Source: a virus. From it: a stretch of DNA of 36,146 nucleotides. Made by a program: the position numbers and the translations under genes. Numbering within the stretch: position 1 is the stretch's first letter; every line of letters starts with the position of its first letter. Of the stretch, positions 9,287 through 23,700 are shown piece after piece. The notes below the pieces were generated by a model. It did not search any database and was not told the origin of the DNA. It was given only the letters and a program-made list of their open reading frames with translations. The stretch is taken from IMG/VR virus record IMGVR_UViG_3300009180_000110, positions 1 through 36,146 of that record. One strand, 5' to 3'.

Positions 9287-9424
9287 GCGGTACGCCTCAA
9301 TGGCGTCCTTGAGGTCGCCGCGCAGTTGCTCAAGCTGGTCCTGCTGCTGCTGGAGCCGCAGGTAAGCCTCAAGTGCGAACTTGTCCAGAGTCGCCCGGTC
9401 CCAGGTGTTGAATGTTGGTGTCAT
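9266..9424 (-). CDS. Small coiled-coil accessory protein (52 aa)
   Basis: A 52-residue protein starting MTPTFNTWDRATLDKFA. It has a Gln/Leu heptad-like middle (LRLQQQQDQLEQLRGDLKDA) and a basic end. The ATG at 9424 overlaps the stop of the upstream leftward gene by 4 nt, which supports the call. Similar short proteins of the TWDRATLDKFA type are common in phage accessory regions, with unknown role. Its 3' end overlaps the end of the rightward gene 8972-9286 by 21 nt, so the two transcripts are antisense there. Confidence 0.75.
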   Translation of the reverse strand: MTPTFNTWDRATLDKFALEAYLRLQQQQDQLEQLRGDLKDAIEAYRLRNLRD

Positions 9425-9648
9425 GGGTGTGGACAATCATCAGGCACAAACGCCAAGCAATGCACACCAGCGTACTTGGTCCGGGTTTTGATCCAGCGGT
9501 CGATGTAAGTGTCAGGCATCAGCGCCAAGCTGCGGCTGATTTGCGAATTAGGAACGCTGAGAGCAATCGCCAGCTCACTGGCTGTCATGCCATCAGGCGC
9601 CAGGGCCAGGGTATCTCGGATGCGTTTACTTAAAACGGTGATTGTCAT
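9421..9648 (-). CDS. Small winged-helix DNA-binding protein (75 aa)
   Basis: A 75-residue protein with a helix-turn-helix: DGMTASELAIALSVPNSQISRSLALM, where SELAIALSV forms the first helix and NSQISRSLALM the recognition helix. The following YIDRWIKTRTKYAG looks like the wing. It probably binds DNA as a small regulator of this leftward gene block or of host genes. The ribosome site is weak (AAGAACAA). It is the only clear HTH protein in the leftward small-gene block and therefore a candidate ligand for the operators at 13809 or 22889. The target is unknown. Confidence 0.72.
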   Translation of the reverse strand: MTITVLSKRIRDTLALAPDGMTASELAIALSVPNSQISRSLALMPDTYIDRWIKTRTKYAGVHCLAFVPDDCPHP

Positions 9649-10292: not shown

Positions 10293-10789
10293 GTCCCCTC
10301 CTTGATGCCGTGGGCGGCTTCGGTGGCACGAATAAGCGATTGTGCGTATTCAAATGAAGGTTTGCCCTTGTGTGTTGTTTTCATATAAACTTTTTCTTCA
10401 ATAGCGGTCATTGCATTTAATGTCAGCGGCTTGCGCTGTGCTGCGGGTGCGGGTTTTTGCACATCGTCAATCTCGCCGCAGTGGTAACACTGCCACGCCC
10501 AACAACCTTTTTCAGAGTGACAAAAACGACACGCTACAGGCCCCTGCACTGGCGGTGCTGGCTGAAAGTTCGGCTCTGCGTCTTGAATTAACAAAATTAA
10601 ACCGTGTTTGCTGCCTTGGTTTTCTTGAGCCAGCGTGACCGTGCCAAAAAGACGGGAGTCGCTATCGTGTTCGCCCGTGCTAACGTCGATTGACACTTCC
10701 ATGCCCTCGACCAGCGCGGCAATGTCTGTCGGCTCCTGCACTGGCTGCTCCGTATTAGTGTTTTTAAATGCAGTATTTTTAAGTGTCAT
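10289..10789 (-). CDS. Modular accessory protein with a cysteine cluster (166 aa)
   Basis: I place the start at 10789 (MTLKNTAF), because GGAGAACTGAA directly precedes it and the longer frame would run into the upstream gene. The 166 residues include a QPVQEP linker, a beta domain, then CRFCHSEKGCWAWQCYHCGE, a likely zinc-binding cluster. After a second Ala/Pro linker comes a helical module (LNAMTAIEEKVYMKTTHKGK) ending in IKEGT. It looks like a chain of small modules also seen in 9655-10050. Function is unknown; the zinc cluster suggests nucleic-acid or protein binding. Confidence 0.72.
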   Translation of the reverse strand: MTLKNTAFKNTNTEQPVQEPTDIAALVEGMEVSIDVSTGEHDSDSRLFGTVTLAQENQGSKHGLILLIQDAEPNFQPAPPVQGPVACRFCHSEKGCWAWQCYHCGEIDDVQKPAPAAQRKPLTLNAMTAIEEKVYMKTTHKGKPSFEYAQSLIRATEAAHGIKEGT

Positions 10790-15823: not shown

Positions 15824-17719
15824 ATGATCTGGCTTGATTTTGAAACCCGCTCCCACTGTGACCTAAAGTCAGCAGGCGTCTACAACTACGCGCAAGACCT
15901 CACGACTGAGGTGCTGTGCATGAGCTACGCCGTTGACGACGGCGAGGTGCAGACTTGGACGGCAGGCCCACTACCTGACTTCACCGGCCACCGCATCATG
16001 GCGCACAACGCTGCCTTTGAGCGGTTGATCTGCTGGTACGTCTTGCAGGTCAACATCCCGTTGGAGTCTTTCTACTGCACCGCCGCGCAGGCCCGTGCTA
16101 ACTGTGCGCCAGGGTCGCTGGAGGACGTGGGCCGGTTCATGGGCGCGTCCATGAAGAAAGACCACCGGGGCGCTGCCCTCATCCGCAAGATGTGCGTCCC
16201 GCCGTTCCAAGAGTCGGCTGAGTTGACCGCCGAGATGATCCAGTATTGCGAACAAGACGTTCGGGCCATGAGGGCCATCAGCCAGGCCATGCGCCCCTTG
16301 TCCGAGGAGGAGCTGGCCGACTACCACGTCAACGAGCGCATCAACGACCGGGGCGTCTTAGTCGATGTGCCGCTCTGCCGCGCAGCCGTGTCCTACGCCG
16401 CCACTGAGGCCGCTGAGATCGCCGAGATTGTCAAGGAGGTGTCCAAGGGTGAGCTGACCTCTGTGCGCTCGCCTAAGATGCGCCAGTGGGTCTGGGACCG
16501 TGTCGGCCCCGAGGCCCGTGCCCTGATGACCAAGGACGACAAGGTCAGCATCGACAAGACCGTGAGAGCCAACCTACTAAACTGTGAAGGAGTACCCCCC
16601 GATGTCCAAGAAATCATCCAGTGCGCCGACGACCTGTGGGCGTCGTCGGTCGCCAAGTTCGCCCGACTCGCCCAACTCGCCGACGAAGAGGACAGCCGAG
16701 TCCGAGGCGCCTTCGTCTTTGCCGGAGGGTCTGCTACAGGTCGAGCTAGTAGCTACGGGGCGCAAGTTCACAATTTCACACGCAAATGCGCGAAAAGTCC
16801 TGATGATGTTAGGGCTGCAATGTGCCGGGGTCACGCCATCGTCCCCAAGTTCGGCCAGCGAGTTACCGATGTCCTCCGGGGGATGCTACGGCCTGCACTG
16901 ATACCAGCCAAGGGTAAACACCTAGTCGTTGCGGATTGGTCTTCGATTGAGGCTAGGGTAAACCCTTGGTTGTCTGGGACGGGTCAGGCCAAGCTGGACA
17001 TTTTCGAGTCGGGCCTGGACCCCTACATTGTCAACGCCGCCGGTACTTTCCAGCGCACCTACGACGACATCAAGGCCGACTACGACCGGGACGGCGAGTC
17101 GGCCCAGCGCCAGATCGGCAAGGTGCAGGAGCTGGCCTGCGGCTTCGCAGGCGGCGTGGGCGCCTTCGCGTCGATGGCCAGAATCTACAGTGTGCGTCTG
17201 TCCGAGGCCGATTCCAAGCGCATGGTGGACGCCTGGCGCCGCAACAATCAGTGGGCCGTTGGCTTCTGGCAGCAGCTTGAGCAGCAGTACACCAGGGCCA
17301 TGCGAAATAAAAATAATGAGTTCGCTGCCGGGCGTGTGGTGTACCTGTTCGACGGCCTGCATCTCTGGTATTCTTTGCCCTCGGGCCGGGTGCTTTGCTA
17401 CCCGTTTGCCCGGCTGGAGGACGACGGCATCAGCTACGCCAAGGCAGCTTGGAAGCCTGCCCAGGACGCCAAGGAGTGGCCCCGCGCCCGGCTGTGGCGC
17501 GGTCTGGCCTGCGAGAACGTGACCCAGGCCGTGGCCAATGATCTGCTGCGCTACGCCCTACGGCAGCTTGACGGTGTGGTGCTGCATGTCCACGACGAGA
17601 TCGTCGTCGAGGGCGGCTCAGAAGAGGAAGTGCGTGGGGTGATGACCACGCCGCCAGCTTGGGCCACTGGCCTGCCGCTGGACTGTGGGATCAAGACGAT
17701 GCCGCGTTACGGCAAATAA
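15824..17719 (+). CDS. Family A DNA polymerase with 3'-5' exonuclease domain
   Basis: A 631-residue replicative polymerase. Proofreading motifs are D5-x-E7 in IWLDFETR (Exo I), NAAFER (Exo II) and YCEQDVRAM (Exo III). The polymerase part has the thumb-palm motif GGSATGRASSYGAQVHNF, motif A VVADWSSIEARV, motif B RQIGKVQELACGFAGG and motif C LHVHDEIVV. The exonuclease motif lies only a few residues from the N terminus, which supports the start at 15824. An ATG at 15794 would fall inside a hairpin and has no ribosome site. No 5'-3' exonuclease domain is present, as is normal for phage enzymes. Confidence 0.93.
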   Translation: MIWLDFETRSHCDLKSAGVYNYAQDLTTEVLCMSYAVDDGEVQTWTAGPLPDFTGHRIMAHNAAFERLICWYVLQVNIPLESFYCTAAQARANCAPGSLEDVGRFMGASMKKDHRGAALIRKMCVPPFQESAELTAEMIQYCEQDVRAMRAISQAMRPLSEEELADYHVNERINDRGVLVDVPLCRAAVSYAATEAAEIAEIVKEVSKGELTSVRSPKMRQWVWDRVGPEARALMTKDDKVSIDKTVRANLLNCEGVPPDVQEIIQCADDLWASSVAKFARLAQLADEEDSRVRGAFVFAGGSATGRASSYGAQVHNFTRKCAKSPDDVRAAMCRGHAIVPKFGQRVTDVLRGMLRPALIPAKGKHLVVADWSSIEARVNPWLSGTGQAKLDIFESGLDPYIVNAAGTFQRTYDDIKADYDRDGESAQRQIGKVQELACGFAGGVGAFASMARIYSVRLSEADSKRMVDAWRRNNQWAVGFWQQLEQQYTRAMRNKNNEFAAGRVVYLFDGLHLWYSLPSGRVLCYPFARLEDDGISYAKAAWKPAQDAKEWPRARLWRGLACENVTQAVANDLLRYALRQLDGVVLHVHDEIVVEGGSEEEVRGVMTTPPAWATGLPLDCGIKTMPRYGK

Positions 17720-17757: not shown

Positions 17758-20034
17758 ATGCAATTCCTAGAGTTTATCACCGGGCTGGCGCCCGTGGGCG
17801 AGACAATGCTTTTTGTCCGACAAAAACCACAGCTACGTGGCGGCGAAGCGCAGTACCACGCCGATGGTGCGGTCAAGGCCACCTGGCCTGCCTACCTGCC
17901 CTCGCACGGCGTCCGAGATGGCCAGGCTTGGTACGGCAACACCGCCTCCTTCATCTGCGACCGTTTCGAGGAGGGCCGGGTGTCGGCCAGCGCGGCCAAC
18001 TGCGAGTACTGCGCCGTGATGGTGCTCGACGACATTGGCTCCAAGTCCAAAACCCCGCCGCTGCCGCCGACCTGGATCATGGAGACTAGTGCAGGCAACT
18101 ACCAGTACGGCTACGTCTTCAGTGAGCAGCCGCCCAAGGGCGAGTTCGCCGCCGCTATCAAGGCCATCGCCGCTGCTGGCTACACCGACCCCGGCGCCTG
18201 CAACCCGGTCCGCAACTTCCGACTGCCCGGCTCTGTCAACCTCAAGCCTGACAAGGCTGAGTGGGCGTCCCGGCTGGTTGAGTTCCACCCCGAGCGCGAG
18301 TTCGTACTGGCCGACATCTGCGCCGCCCTGGACGTGGAGCCTGGCCCGGCTGCGTCTGGTGGCCCTCGCCCGATTCGAATGACCGACGATGGCGCCGATG
18401 ATGTGCTGGCGTGGTTGTCGGCGCAGGGTCTGTTGCTCTCCCGCCCGAATGCCGAGGGCTGGGCCGGTGTGGTCTGCCCCAACAGCGCGGAGCATACCGA
18501 CGGCAACCCCGAGGGCCGCTACATGCCGCTGCACCGGGCCTACTGCTGTATGCACGGCCACTGCGTCGATCTGGACAGCAACACCTTCATGCAGTGGGTC
18601 GCCGACCAGGGCGGTCCCCGTCACGCCCCCGGCCTGCGCGACGACCTGATGGCCGCGCGTCTGGAGCTGGCCCTGGCCAAGCTCAGACCAAGCACCGAGT
18701 ACCCCGACGTGGCGGCTGCGGTCATCGCCGAAGTCGAGCGCCAAGAGCTTGGCCGGGTCGAGAAGTCGGGCTGGTATTCCCGCTTCGCATACCTTCAAGA
18801 TGACGAGGCGTTCTTCGACATGGTGGACCGCCGTGAGCTGTCCCGCAACACCTTCAACGCCTTGTTTCGCCACATCAAGTGCGTCTCCATCCACTCCACC
18901 GGCAAGGCGCCCCGCCGAGTCGAGGCGTCGGTCTGCTACGACGAGAACCGCCAGTCGGCTGGCGCCCGGTCCTTGGTCGGCGTCACCTACGCCGCTGGCG
19001 AGCCGGTGCTGGTCACTAGGGACGGGCTGGTGTACGGCAACCGCTGGCGCAACTCGCGCCCGGCGCCCGTAGCTTGTGACGTGAGCCGCTGGCTGCGTCA
19101 CGCCGAGCGTATGCTGCCGATTGAGTTTGAGCGTGAGCATCTCCTTAACGTGTTGGCCCACAAGGTCCAGTACCCCGGCCACAAGATCAACCACGCCGTC
19201 CTGCTGGGCGGCAAGCCAGGCTCCGGCAAGGACAGTCTCTTCGCCCCCTTTTTCTGGGCCATTGGTGGCGCCGCTAAGCTCAACTGCGCCGTTGTTAAGA
19301 ATGACGATTTGACCTCGCAGTGGGGCTACGGGCTGGAGTGCGAGGTGATGGAGATCGCCGAGCTGCGCCAGGCCGAGGCCCGTGACCGCCGGGCGCTTGA
19401 GAACCACCTCAAGCCCATCATCGCGGCCCCGCCCGAGTACCTCCCCATCAACCGTAAAGGCTTGCACCCCTACATGGCCCTCAACCGGGTGCTAGTGGTC
19501 GCCTTCTCTAACGAGCGCGTAGCCATCTCACTGCCCTCCGACGATCGCCGTTGGTTCGTGGCGTGGGCCGAGGCCGGGCGCCTCCCCGAGGCCGAGGCCG
19601 TCGCCCTTTGGAACTGGTACCTCCACAGGGGCGGCTTCGCTGGCGTGGCGGCGTGGCTGGCTGCGCGTGACGTGTCCGCTTTCAACCCGTCGGCCCCGCC
19701 GCCACTGACCGAGGCCAAGGCCATTATGATCGACGCTGGCATGAGCACCGCCGAGTCGGTGTTAACTGAGATGCTGCGCGAGCGCCGGGGGCCGTTCGCG
19801 GCTGGTGTGATCGGCTCGCCGTTTCACACGATATGCGACCGGGTCCAGGGGTCTGGCGCCGCGCCGCCCGGCGTCAAGATTGTGCAGGCCGCGCTATTCC
19901 ATGCCCTGCGCGAGGCCGGGTGGTCGGACATGGGCCGGTTGACCTCCCGCGAATTCCCCACCAAGAAACATATCTTCGTGGCGCCCGACGTGGCCGGGCT
20001 TTCGAAGTCCGACATGCGCCGGGCCGTGGCATAA
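17758..20034 (+). CDS. Primase-helicase with D5/SF3-like C-terminal ATPase
   Basis: A 758-residue protein with two parts. The N-terminal half looks like a primase region. It contains FICDRFEE, then NYQYGYVF, and a zinc-type cluster around residues 237-270 (VVCPNSAEH, then RAYCCMHGHC). The C-terminal half is a DUF5906/D5-like SF3 helicase. Walker A is GGKPGSGKDS near residue 483, and the sensor region includes VVAFSNERVAISLPSDDRRW near residue 581. It would unwind the template and make primers for the family A polymerase. The start at 17758 follows GAAAGAGAC. Long antisense frames across this gene reflect its GC-rich third positions. Confidence 0.85.
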   Translation: MQFLEFITGLAPVGETMLFVRQKPQLRGGEAQYHADGAVKATWPAYLPSHGVRDGQAWYGNTASFICDRFEEGRVSASAANCEYCAVMVLDDIGSKSKTPPLPPTWIMETSAGNYQYGYVFSEQPPKGEFAAAIKAIAAAGYTDPGACNPVRNFRLPGSVNLKPDKAEWASRLVEFHPEREFVLADICAALDVEPGPAASGGPRPIRMTDDGADDVLAWLSAQGLLLSRPNAEGWAGVVCPNSAEHTDGNPEGRYMPLHRAYCCMHGHCVDLDSNTFMQWVADQGGPRHAPGLRDDLMAARLELALAKLRPSTEYPDVAAAVIAEVERQELGRVEKSGWYSRFAYLQDDEAFFDMVDRRELSRNTFNALFRHIKCVSIHSTGKAPRRVEASVCYDENRQSAGARSLVGVTYAAGEPVLVTRDGLVYGNRWRNSRPAPVACDVSRWLRHAERMLPIEFEREHLLNVLAHKVQYPGHKINHAVLLGGKPGSGKDSLFAPFFWAIGGAAKLNCAVVKNDDLTSQWGYGLECEVMEIAELRQAEARDRRALENHLKPIIAAPPEYLPINRKGLHPYMALNRVLVVAFSNERVAISLPSDDRRWFVAWAEAGRLPEAEAVALWNWYLHRGGFAGVAAWLAARDVSAFNPSAPPPLTEAKAIMIDAGMSTAESVLTEMLRERRGPFAAGVIGSPFHTICDRVQGSGAAPPGVKIVQAALFHALREAGWSDMGRLTSREFPTKKHIFVAPDVAGLSKSDMRRAVA

Positions 20035-22037: not shown

Positions 22038-22787
22038 TTAAGCTGTAGCTAGCATAATGACACGACGCGCATGGCCGGCCGCATGGTCCGCGATGACGAT
22101 ATCGCGCGCTTTGATTGATGTACCGGCGCACAATGTGCATTTGGCGCACGTCGATTTTCTACCGGCTTCGGCGCTAGCCGGGCATGGCGCCTCACCAGCT
22201 TGCACGTCGACACCGATGCTGACGCGAAACACGCGCATGCCGAGTAAATTGGCTTTCGCAGCTTGATCGATTGTGTCGGCGCTAGCCATTACAAGCGGCG
22301 CCCATGCGTCGACGTCAAAATTTGGCCGGTCCCATTGATGCGTATACCCGCGCCGGCCGGCCGCATAACGGGTTATTTGGGTCCACATTGTTGCTGGCGC
22401 GGCGCATGGGTCCCCATACGTACCGATGCGTACAATTTTGCCTTGTAGAGCGGCCGCTATTGTCGCTGCATCGGCGCGCACGTACCGGCCGCGCTTGTAT
22501 GCGTTATAGACTGATAGCACTGATTTTGCTACTTGTACATAGCATGGCGATGCGCCGGTCCTGCGCGCCAGTTTAGGCCTATGCTCGCATTGGCCGCATA
22601 CGCTCGCATCGGCGCCGGTTTGCAGCGCGCGCACTGGATTGACATGGGACCGGATGATAAAGCTCTGGACAATGGCGCCAGTCTTGGCATTTTTGGACCC
22701 GTCGAGCTTGTTGACGATAACGACAATCGGCGCGCCATCGATAACCGATGGACCCTCATATGCGATGTAACCTAAGATTTTGTTCAT
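22038..22787 (-). CDS. Conserved phage protein with two cysteine clusters (249 aa)
   Basis: A 249-residue protein. Cluster 1 is CGQCEHRP with a later C in CYVQVA; cluster 2 is CPASAEAGRKSTCAKCTLC, followed by ARDIVIADHAAGH. Both look zinc- or iron-sulphur-binding. Middle segments include VYNAYKRGRYVRAD, GTYGDPCAAP and LLGMRVFRVS. This layout recurs in phages as a hypothetical protein; I know no activity. It is the first gene of the leftward operon, transcribed away from the iteron region. AAGGTACACCAC precedes its ATG. Codons are unusually rich in GCGC, GGCC and CCGG compared with the head genes. Confidence 0.78.
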   Translation of the reverse strand: MNKILGYIAYEGPSVIDGAPIVVIVNKLDGSKNAKTGAIVQSFIIRSHVNPVRALQTGADASVCGQCEHRPKLARRTGASPCYVQVAKSVLSVYNAYKRGRYVRADAATIAAALQGKIVRIGTYGDPCAAPATMWTQITRYAAGRRGYTHQWDRPNFDVDAWAPLVMASADTIDQAAKANLLGMRVFRVSIGVDVQAGEAPCPASAEAGRKSTCAKCTLCAGTSIKARDIVIADHAAGHARRVIMLATA

Positions 22788-22888: not shown

Positions 22889-23166
22889 TGTAGTCAATGT
22901 GGTCAATTTGTAGTCAATGTTTTTTGACGTGATTGACTACATGCGTACAGAGGGGAAATGGCTGTTTGTAGTCAATGTAGTCATCTATTCTGTTTAACTC
23001 TTATATGAGATATATATGTATAGGTTAGACCGGGCGCCAGCGCGCAAACGTGAGCTTTCATGAAATAGATGACTACATTGACTACAATGACTACGGCGCC
23101 AATGAAAAGCTGTAGTCAATCAGGCAAAAGACTACAGCCTACAGATTGACTACAGCATTGACTACA
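22889..23166. repeat. Iteron-like array of 9-bp units TGTAGTCAA
   Basis: About a dozen copies of TGTAGTCAAT or close variants occur in both orientations in a 390-bp gene-free stretch. Forward copies begin at 22889, 22898 (TGTGGTCAAT), 22909, 22967, 22976 and 23111. Reverse copies (ATTGACTACA type) begin at 22932, 23068, 23077, 23086, 23127, 23145 and 23157. Tandem copies repeat every 9 bp. The array separates the leftward operon from the terminase genes. It is a candidate replication origin, packaging site or multi-site operator. Confidence 0.75.
22966..23087. repeat. 24-bp perfect inverted repeat flanking an AT-rich segment
   Basis: Arm 1 (22966-22989) and arm 2 (23064-23087) are exact reverse complements over 24 bp, each holding two iteron units. 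The 74 bp between them contain an AT-rich stretch (TTATATGAGATATATATG, 23001-23018) followed by GGCGCC. An easily melted core flanked by protein sites is typical of an origin, though a cruciform or terminase-binding structure would look similar. Confidence 0.72.
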
Positions 23167-23176
23167 AGGGACCATC

Positions 23177-23602
23177 ATGGCAGGAACGAAAAAAAAACGG
23201 TCGGACCTAGAGCTGCTCGATGCAATAGACCCTGAATTGATCACAGGCATGTTAGAGCACGGCAAGAGCATTGCAGACGTTTGCCTCGCCTTAGGTATCA
23301 GCAAACGGGCTTTGGACATATGGATAGACCAAACGGGCTTCAGTGACGCTATACTCCGGGCGCGCGTGCGCGCCGCTGACATGATGGCTTGCGAGACATT
23401 GACGATAGCTGACAGCATATCGGATGACAACCCATCTCGCCCATTGCATCGAATCAGAACCAGGCAGTGGCTGGCTGAGCGATGGGACCCAAAGCAATAT
23501 GGCACCAAGCAAACCGAAGTGAGCATTAACATCGGAAGCCTGCGCCTGGATGCACTACGGCAAATCGAAGTAAGCACTAACATCGAGGCTGACACTGTAT
23601 AG
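23177..23602 (+). CDS. terS: Terminase small subunit
   Basis: A 141-residue protein that recognises phage DNA and recruits the large terminase. It has an N-terminal HTH (KSIADVCLALGISKRALDIWI), a helical core (LRARVRAADMMACETLTIAD) and a C-terminal conserved block (RIRTRQWLAERWDPKQYG) found in many phage small terminases. AAGGGA precedes the ATG, only 11 nt after the last iteron at 23157-23166. Small terminases often bind repeats near their own gene, so the array upstream may be its binding site. Confidence 0.82.
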   Translation: MAGTKKKRSDLELLDAIDPELITGMLEHGKSIADVCLALGISKRALDIWIDQTGFSDAILRARVRAADMMACETLTIADSISDDNPSRPLHRIRTRQWLAERWDPKQYGTKQTEVSINIGSLRLDALRQIEVSTNIEADTV

Positions 23603-23637: not shown

Positions 23638-23700
23638 TGTAAACTGCAGCACAAAACACCCACCAAACTGCCCACATTGACCACAAAAAATTTTTAAAAA

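Follow-up and report, generated by a model that had tools for sequence, protein, structure and literature searches.

The iteron array and its surroundings

We analysed a 36,146-bp DNA stretch, the IMG/VR virus record IMGVR_UViG_3300009180_000110 (hereafter the window, to which all positions refer), with emphasis on a dense array of 9-bp repeats at 22889-23166 and on the primase-helicase encoded by the same phage. Besides this protein, the window encodes an Sf6-type TerS, TerL, an exonuclease, a family-A polymerase and a helicase. The array is composed of clustered short direct repeats and occupies the non-coding gap between divergent genes. The original prediction had counted about a dozen copies within 280 bp and had found the motif not evident elsewhere in the genes read, and both statements hold. 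The unit TGTAGTCAA occurs in eight exact copies within the array, four per strand, and not once in the remainder of the 36,146 bp. Allowing up to one mismatch gives 11 copies, and 13 sites are obtained when 10-mers with as many as two mismatches are included. Six copies with up to one mismatch lie outside the array, which is chance level since dinucleotide shuffles yield 5.5 per whole window. In 60 Markov-simulated windows, no 9-mer exceeded four copies per 280 bp.

The predicted exact 9-bp spacing, with pairs at 22889/22898 and 22967/22976 plus one triplet on the right side, in both orientations, was confirmed as well. The larger layout had escaped the original prediction: units on the left point mostly rightward (+) and those on the right mostly leftward (-), many of them exactly 9 bp apart, and a perfect 24-bp inverted repeat with two units per arm (22966-22989 / 23064-23087) brackets an A+T core of 30 bp (22993-23022, 83% A+T). 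The individual features are as follows.

22889..23166 (no strand): whole iteron array, proposed origin of replication
22889..22897 (+): iteron TGTAGTCAA, exact
22898..22906 (+): iteron TGTGGTCAA, one mismatch, 9 bp past the previous unit (22889)
22909..22917 (+): iteron TGTAGTCAA, exact
22933..22941 (-): iteron TGTAGTCAA, exact, opposing the main direction of the left arm
22966..22989 (+): left arm of the perfect 24-bp inverted repeat, containing two iterons
22967..22975 (+): iteron TGTAGTCAA, exact
22976..22984 (+): iteron TGTAGTCAT, one mismatch, 9 bp past the previous unit (22967)
22993..23022 (no strand): A+T core, 83% A+T, candidate site of melting; cores like this one, averaging 84% A+T, occur in 98 two-sided arrays
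23064..23087 (-): right arm of the perfect 24-bp inverted repeat, containing two iterons
23069..23077 (-): iteron TGTAGTCAT, one mismatch
23078..23086 (-): iteron TGTAGTCAA, exact
23087..23095 (-): weak iteron CGTAGTCAT, two mismatches, 9 bp past the previous unit (23078)
23111..23119 (+): iteron TGTAGTCAA, exact, opposing the main direction of the right arm
23128..23136 (-): weak iteron TGTAGTCTT, two mismatches
23146..23154 (-): iteron TGTAGTCAA, exact
23158..23166 (-): iteron TGTAGTCAA, exact, closely upstream of the terS start

Sigma-70 promoters were at chance level in the array region, and a search with the DNA of this region against known phages gave only 25-base chance matches.

The primase-helicase

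The protein proposed here as the initiator is encoded about 2.9 kb to the left of the array. Its open frame starts at 17659; residue numbering counts from 17707.

17758..20034 (+): primase-helicase, proposed initiator, with RepB-type primase, superfamily 3 (SF3)/DUF5906 helicase and C-terminal winged-helix-like domain
19747..20031 (+): residues 681-775, the C-terminal winged-helix-like domain, proposed to read the iterons, from covariation and an AlphaFold model with a predicted local distance difference test (pLDDT) score of ~85-95
19936..19944 (+): codons R744-L745-T746, predicted start of the wing; 746 is the best tracker of the iteron word

The SF3-type DUF5906 domain scores above the Pfam cutoff and the RepB_primase match of the N terminus just under it (23.4 bits, cutoff 24.3); the domain search gave no TOPRIM match. 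Among solved structures, the only relevant relative by sequence is the primase of phage NrS-1 (6k9c, 6k9e), which matches in the helicase part (E 8e-7) and is limited to profile positions 465-669. P4 alpha gave no sequence match in the PDB search. The full-length AlphaFold model was too poor for use (mean pLDDT 46). The C-terminal 150 residues were modelled with a mean pLDDT of 84.9, and the last 95 of them adopt the order helix-strand-helix-helix-strand-loop-strand-helix, i.e. a winged-helix layout, with residues 746 and 751 in the wing loop. From this model, we predict that the C-terminal domain is winged-helix-like, with its wing around residue 746.

Conserved plan and changing word in related phages

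We fetched 80 loci with a related TerL. In some of them, the same array is found at the corresponding place, and alignment with the window extends across the whole region. Others lack it despite 93-98% identical TerL; in those that were examined, a helicase-primase gene of another kind is immediately followed by a different repeat array, and DnaA boxes lie between terS and terL. This contrast gave the first indication that the replication module, rather than packaging, is where the array belongs.

Searches with three primase-helicases led to 103 distinct loci with a usable array, after removal of those in which the gene was truncated or no clear array was present. The expectation that related phages would have the array at the same locus was thus borne out, the place being usually the same. 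The plan of the array is kept across these 103 loci, and the sequence of the unit (the word) varies: TGTAGTCAA, TGTGGACAA, TGTAGGCAA and TGTGTGYCA/TGTGGGCAG were found. In the 98 two-sided arrays, left sites are oriented forward in 315 and reverse in 81 cases, right sites reverse in 435 and forward in 106; 286 of 519 same-strand neighbouring sites are exactly 9 bp apart. In contig G003 (loci L006 and L143), the array at the same place has a different word, with TGTGTGTCA units in its left part and, in its right part, three ACTGCCCAC units spaced by 9 bp. L107 has a different terminase, and its array follows the primase-helicase gene at a distance of 170 bp. In the published circular phage genome MW202483.1 (L313), whose primase-helicase is 51% identical and has another wing, an array of the TGTTTACAT/GTTTACGTA type that is not annotated (L313:10212-10575) lies between leftward genes and the terminase region.

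Two relatives from a genome collection are both on betaproteobacterial metagenome-assembled genome (MAG) contigs, one labelled Rhodoferax, although MAG binning does not prove the host. The Rhodoferax contig, which was outside the analysis set, combines A746 with the expected TGTAGG/TGTGGG units.

Covariation of the iteron word with the primase-helicase

In an unbiased scan of 752 alignment columns of the primase-helicase over the 103 loci, residue 746 was the most informative on the word class, followed by 751. T746 goes with TGTAGT (12/12 loci), A746 with TGT(A/G/T)GG (30/30), H746 together with L744 with TGTGTG or TGTGGG (21/21), and K746 with TGTGGA in 26 of 39 loci. To account for kinship, we used a tree of residues 1-690, which leaves out the C-terminal domain. 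On this tree, residue 746 and the word class each change 18 times. Ten independent K/A pairs could be formed, in which the base follows the residue in 7.6 on average and goes the opposite way in none (median p 0.008). The T contrasts have the same direction in four of four, and the H contrasts in three of four with one tie, these pairs being too few for significance. When co-changes were counted for the 522 variable columns, 746 ranked first, eight of its 18 changes coinciding with a change of word (p 1.8e-5; an approximate test, as branches are treated as exchangeable). The top 11 columns all fall within the last 38 residues (738-775).

These data bear on the idea that the host protein DnaA reads the units as degenerate DnaA boxes. 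The units have 9 bp, TTGACTACA matches TTATCCACA at six of nine bases, and relatives with another replication module have true DnaA boxes in the interval from terS to terL. Against this, TT(A/T)TNCACA is absent from the array and is matched in the window only at 10455, 13813 and 23724. Also, the word shifts as a set from phage to phage, in parallel with a phage protein, and this would not be explained by a host reader. We regard a DnaA-read array as hardly conceivable.

Pairwise contrasts

The initiators of the near-isogenic pair L124 and L134, whose words differ, are identical at 729 of 733 positions before the last 38 residues and at 31 of 38 within them, so that seven of the 11 differences fall in this segment, including the change from RLT to LVH at 744-746. 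The flanks of the two arrays are 91-95% identical, up to the left edge of the array and again from the terS start, and the block of ~285 bp between them, i.e. the array, does not align. The simplest reading would be that array and reader changed together. Similarly, the primase-helicases of the window and G003 (L143), with different words, are 94% identical up to residue 737 and 61% beyond; those of the window and L117, with the same word, are 89% identical up to this point and 92% beyond. In both pairs with differing words (window/G003 and L124/L134), the sequence from initiator to array is largely alignable while both ends change.

The covariation might also be by-catch of recombination, with the array serving as a cooperative operator for a repressor or activator that the phage encodes elsewhere. 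The position between divergent operons would suit such a role, and joint transfer of array and C terminus by recombination is possible in some pairs. However, the alignable interval between the changing ends speaks against it, the signal is focused on a few wing residues instead of being gene-wide, and of the early genes scanned, none was recognised as encoding a repressor. This explanation therefore appears very unlikely to us. If the initiator itself binds the array, the divergent promoters might still be affected as a side effect, which would be compatible with our data.

Neighbouring genes as candidate readers

Three further proteins were considered as readers of the array, two of them being encoded next to it:

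22038..22787 (-): phrog_2554 gene of unknown function, first in the leftward operon, without a tie to the word
23177..23602 (+): terS, Sf6-type, neighbour, not the reader

The product of the leftward gene was rejected, its gene being present in only one of the four other contigs that share the word of the window. The helix-turn-helix (HTH) protein encoded at 9421-9648, originally put forward as a candidate, is an unlikely reader because it is 99% identical in G003, where the word is different.

TerS deserves more attention. Pac sites, at which packaging begins, are often located within or close to terS, and the array ends 10 bp before a terS of the Sf6 type; the units could thus be a pac site bound by TerS. 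Word and terminase are, however, doubly dissociated. TerS is 94-96% identical to that of the window in L134 and L143, where the word differs, and its HTH region is even identical between the window and G003. Conversely, L106, L107 and L114 carry other terminase genes yet keep TGTAGTCAA. The array-less relatives with 93-98% identical TerL and another replication module point the same way. We rejected TerS as the reader, and a pac site is, in our estimate, somewhat less probable still than the operator discussed above.

Proposed origin and mechanism

According to our proposal, the array is very probably an iteron replication origin, read by the phage's own primase-helicase through its C-terminal domain. 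Origin, pac site and cooperative operator had initially all been held to fit the location; residue-level covariation with the primase-helicase now supports the origin, and the double dissociation of TerS argues against a pac site. Physical binding, helicase loading, melting and the start of replication at the array are what we infer from these patterns. The primase-helicase would bind the 9-bp units via the winged-helix-like domain, and the two facing sets of units would place helicase rings on either side of the A+T core. The core would then melt, and the protein would prime synthesis for the family-A DNA polymerase of the phage. Unit positions 4-6, the variable bases, would be read at least partly by the wing around residue 746, in which case unit and wing would be expected to change together.

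Beyond this, we consider it rather probable that these phages possess a naturally diversified initiator-origin code. In this code, the variable bases of the 9-bp iteron would be set by the wing, with residue 746 (T, A, K or H) at its centre; origins and readers would have changed together many times, and the reader would belong to a class of primase-helicases for which recognition of stem-loops, not of iterons, has been proposed.

Several observations weigh against the proposal. K746 occurs with TGTGGG in 13 of its 39 loci, so 746 is not the sole determinant and other residues matter. The distant relative L312, on the second MAG contig, has H746 without L744 and no clear array in its available DNA. 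Word classes were defined after the arrays had been viewed, and the related loci are not fully independent, for which the pair test corrects in part. A Foldseek search of the PDB with the C-terminal model gave no significant match (best E 0.24), so that the wing is assigned by prediction; among the weak top matches are the winged-helix-type proteins LmrR, PadR and replication terminator protein. In the GC skew analysis suggested at the outset, raw skew follows gene direction and third-position skew has no clear switch at the array. Finally, the distance between array and initiator gene in the window is unlike that in the origins of Staphylococcus aureus pathogenicity islands (SaPIs) and phage-inducible chromosomal islands (PICIs).

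This distance, together with the location between divergent genes, would also be in line with a control or accessory site, e.g. for copy control or as an operator of the divergent promoters, that is read by the primase-helicase while replication starts elsewhere. A precedent is P4 alpha, which also binds crr, a second site where replication does not start. On the other hand, the whole-window count revealed no second cluster of the TGTAGTCAA word, and PICI origins have been described as having just such a layout, with iteron sets that face each other across an A+T core (PMC6092414). We consider such a control site unlikely.

If the proposal is correct, sequence alone has sufficed to assign a likely origin and its reader to a large group of uncultured phages. 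About 100 natural pairs of initiator and origin are then at hand, with differences pointing to single residues, and a change of origin specificity in a replication initiator becomes directly testable with existing natural variants. The literature searched consisted of open-licence papers, so that a prior description of this origin family could exist.

Comparison with known systems

A mode of action like the one proposed here has been described for P4 alpha and the Rep proteins of SaPIs and PICIs (PMC4234260, PMC7581432, PMC6092414). The pri-rep-ori modules of SaPIs and PICIs share with our proposal a helicase-type initiator that recognises its origin by a C-terminal domain (PMC6092414, PMC7581432), which here is inferred, and two iteron sets flanking an A+T region, which were found in the window type. 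They differ in that the origin lies directly 3' of the initiator gene (~2.9 kb off in the window, 170 bp in L107) and in belonging to satellite islands that lack virion genes of their own, whereas the window is a 36-kb phage with TerS, TerL and its own DNA polymerase. Moreover, the array of the window lies between divergent operons and has 9-bp units of another sequence. In P4 alpha, a single protein binds the origin repeats via a C-terminal winged helix, unwinds and primes (PMC4234260), as proposed here; its primase is of the TOPRIM type, whereas the N terminus of the window protein is RepB-type-like, by a weak match below cutoff.

Proteins of the pRN1 ORF904 type, composed of an archaeo-eukaryotic primase, an SF3 helicase and a winged helix, have the same proposed domain order. 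The authors of the pRN1 work proposed that such proteins assemble at a stem-loop, and iterons were not found (PMC4234260); here, in contrast, the reader follows an iteron array. This suggests that proteins of this domain order can use iterons and not stem-loops alone. The NrS-1 primase-polymerase is similar in its helicase domain, but its Tail domain has been reported to adopt a novel fold (PMC7102993).

For the covariation, the closest parallel on record is RepA of the PICI-like elements (PLEs), phage satellites of Vibrio cholerae, where domain swaps matched origin swaps, as experimentally confirmed (PMC8263062). There too, the DNA-binding domain of the initiator covaries with an iteron origin and modules are swapped. 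PLE RepA is, however, a member of the RepA_N family with ~30-bp semi-palindromic iterons and two replicon types, whereas we found a primase-helicase, 9-bp units, several word classes and a signal at single residues.

Further repeats in the window and its relatives

Directly upstream of terL, the window contains a 9-bp spaced pair CTGCCCACA-TTGACCACA (23668-23685) that is also present in L006 and resembles the iterons of both words. L006 (contig G003, 53,267 bp) contains two diverged copies (~85-94% identical) of several stretches; a chimeric assembly or the joining of two related phages could account for this.

In many relatives, the iterons are directly followed, on the terminase side, by another repeat array of a different kind, which is absent in the window (e.g. 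L153:7509-7697, L168:9271-9471, L136:12482-12611, L138:13209-13393 and L113:6269-6467). Its words are AAGTTAGTG/CACTAACTT in one clade and the GC-rich CGACCGCC, GCCAGCAGC or CACGGCCAG in others. This further array may serve in packaging or regulation.

In relatives with the other replication module, two to four exact DnaA boxes (TTATNCACA) are clustered between terS and terL, ~190-500 bp upstream of terL (L002, L018, L051, L061 and others); the window type lacks such clusters. Phages with an AAA_25 helicase-primase and 82-96% identical TerL have their own arrays of the ACAAATGG and GGGACAAAT types right behind this gene (L007:2280-2420, L030:2340-2450 and L052:420-550), which are likely a second family of iteron origins with changing words.
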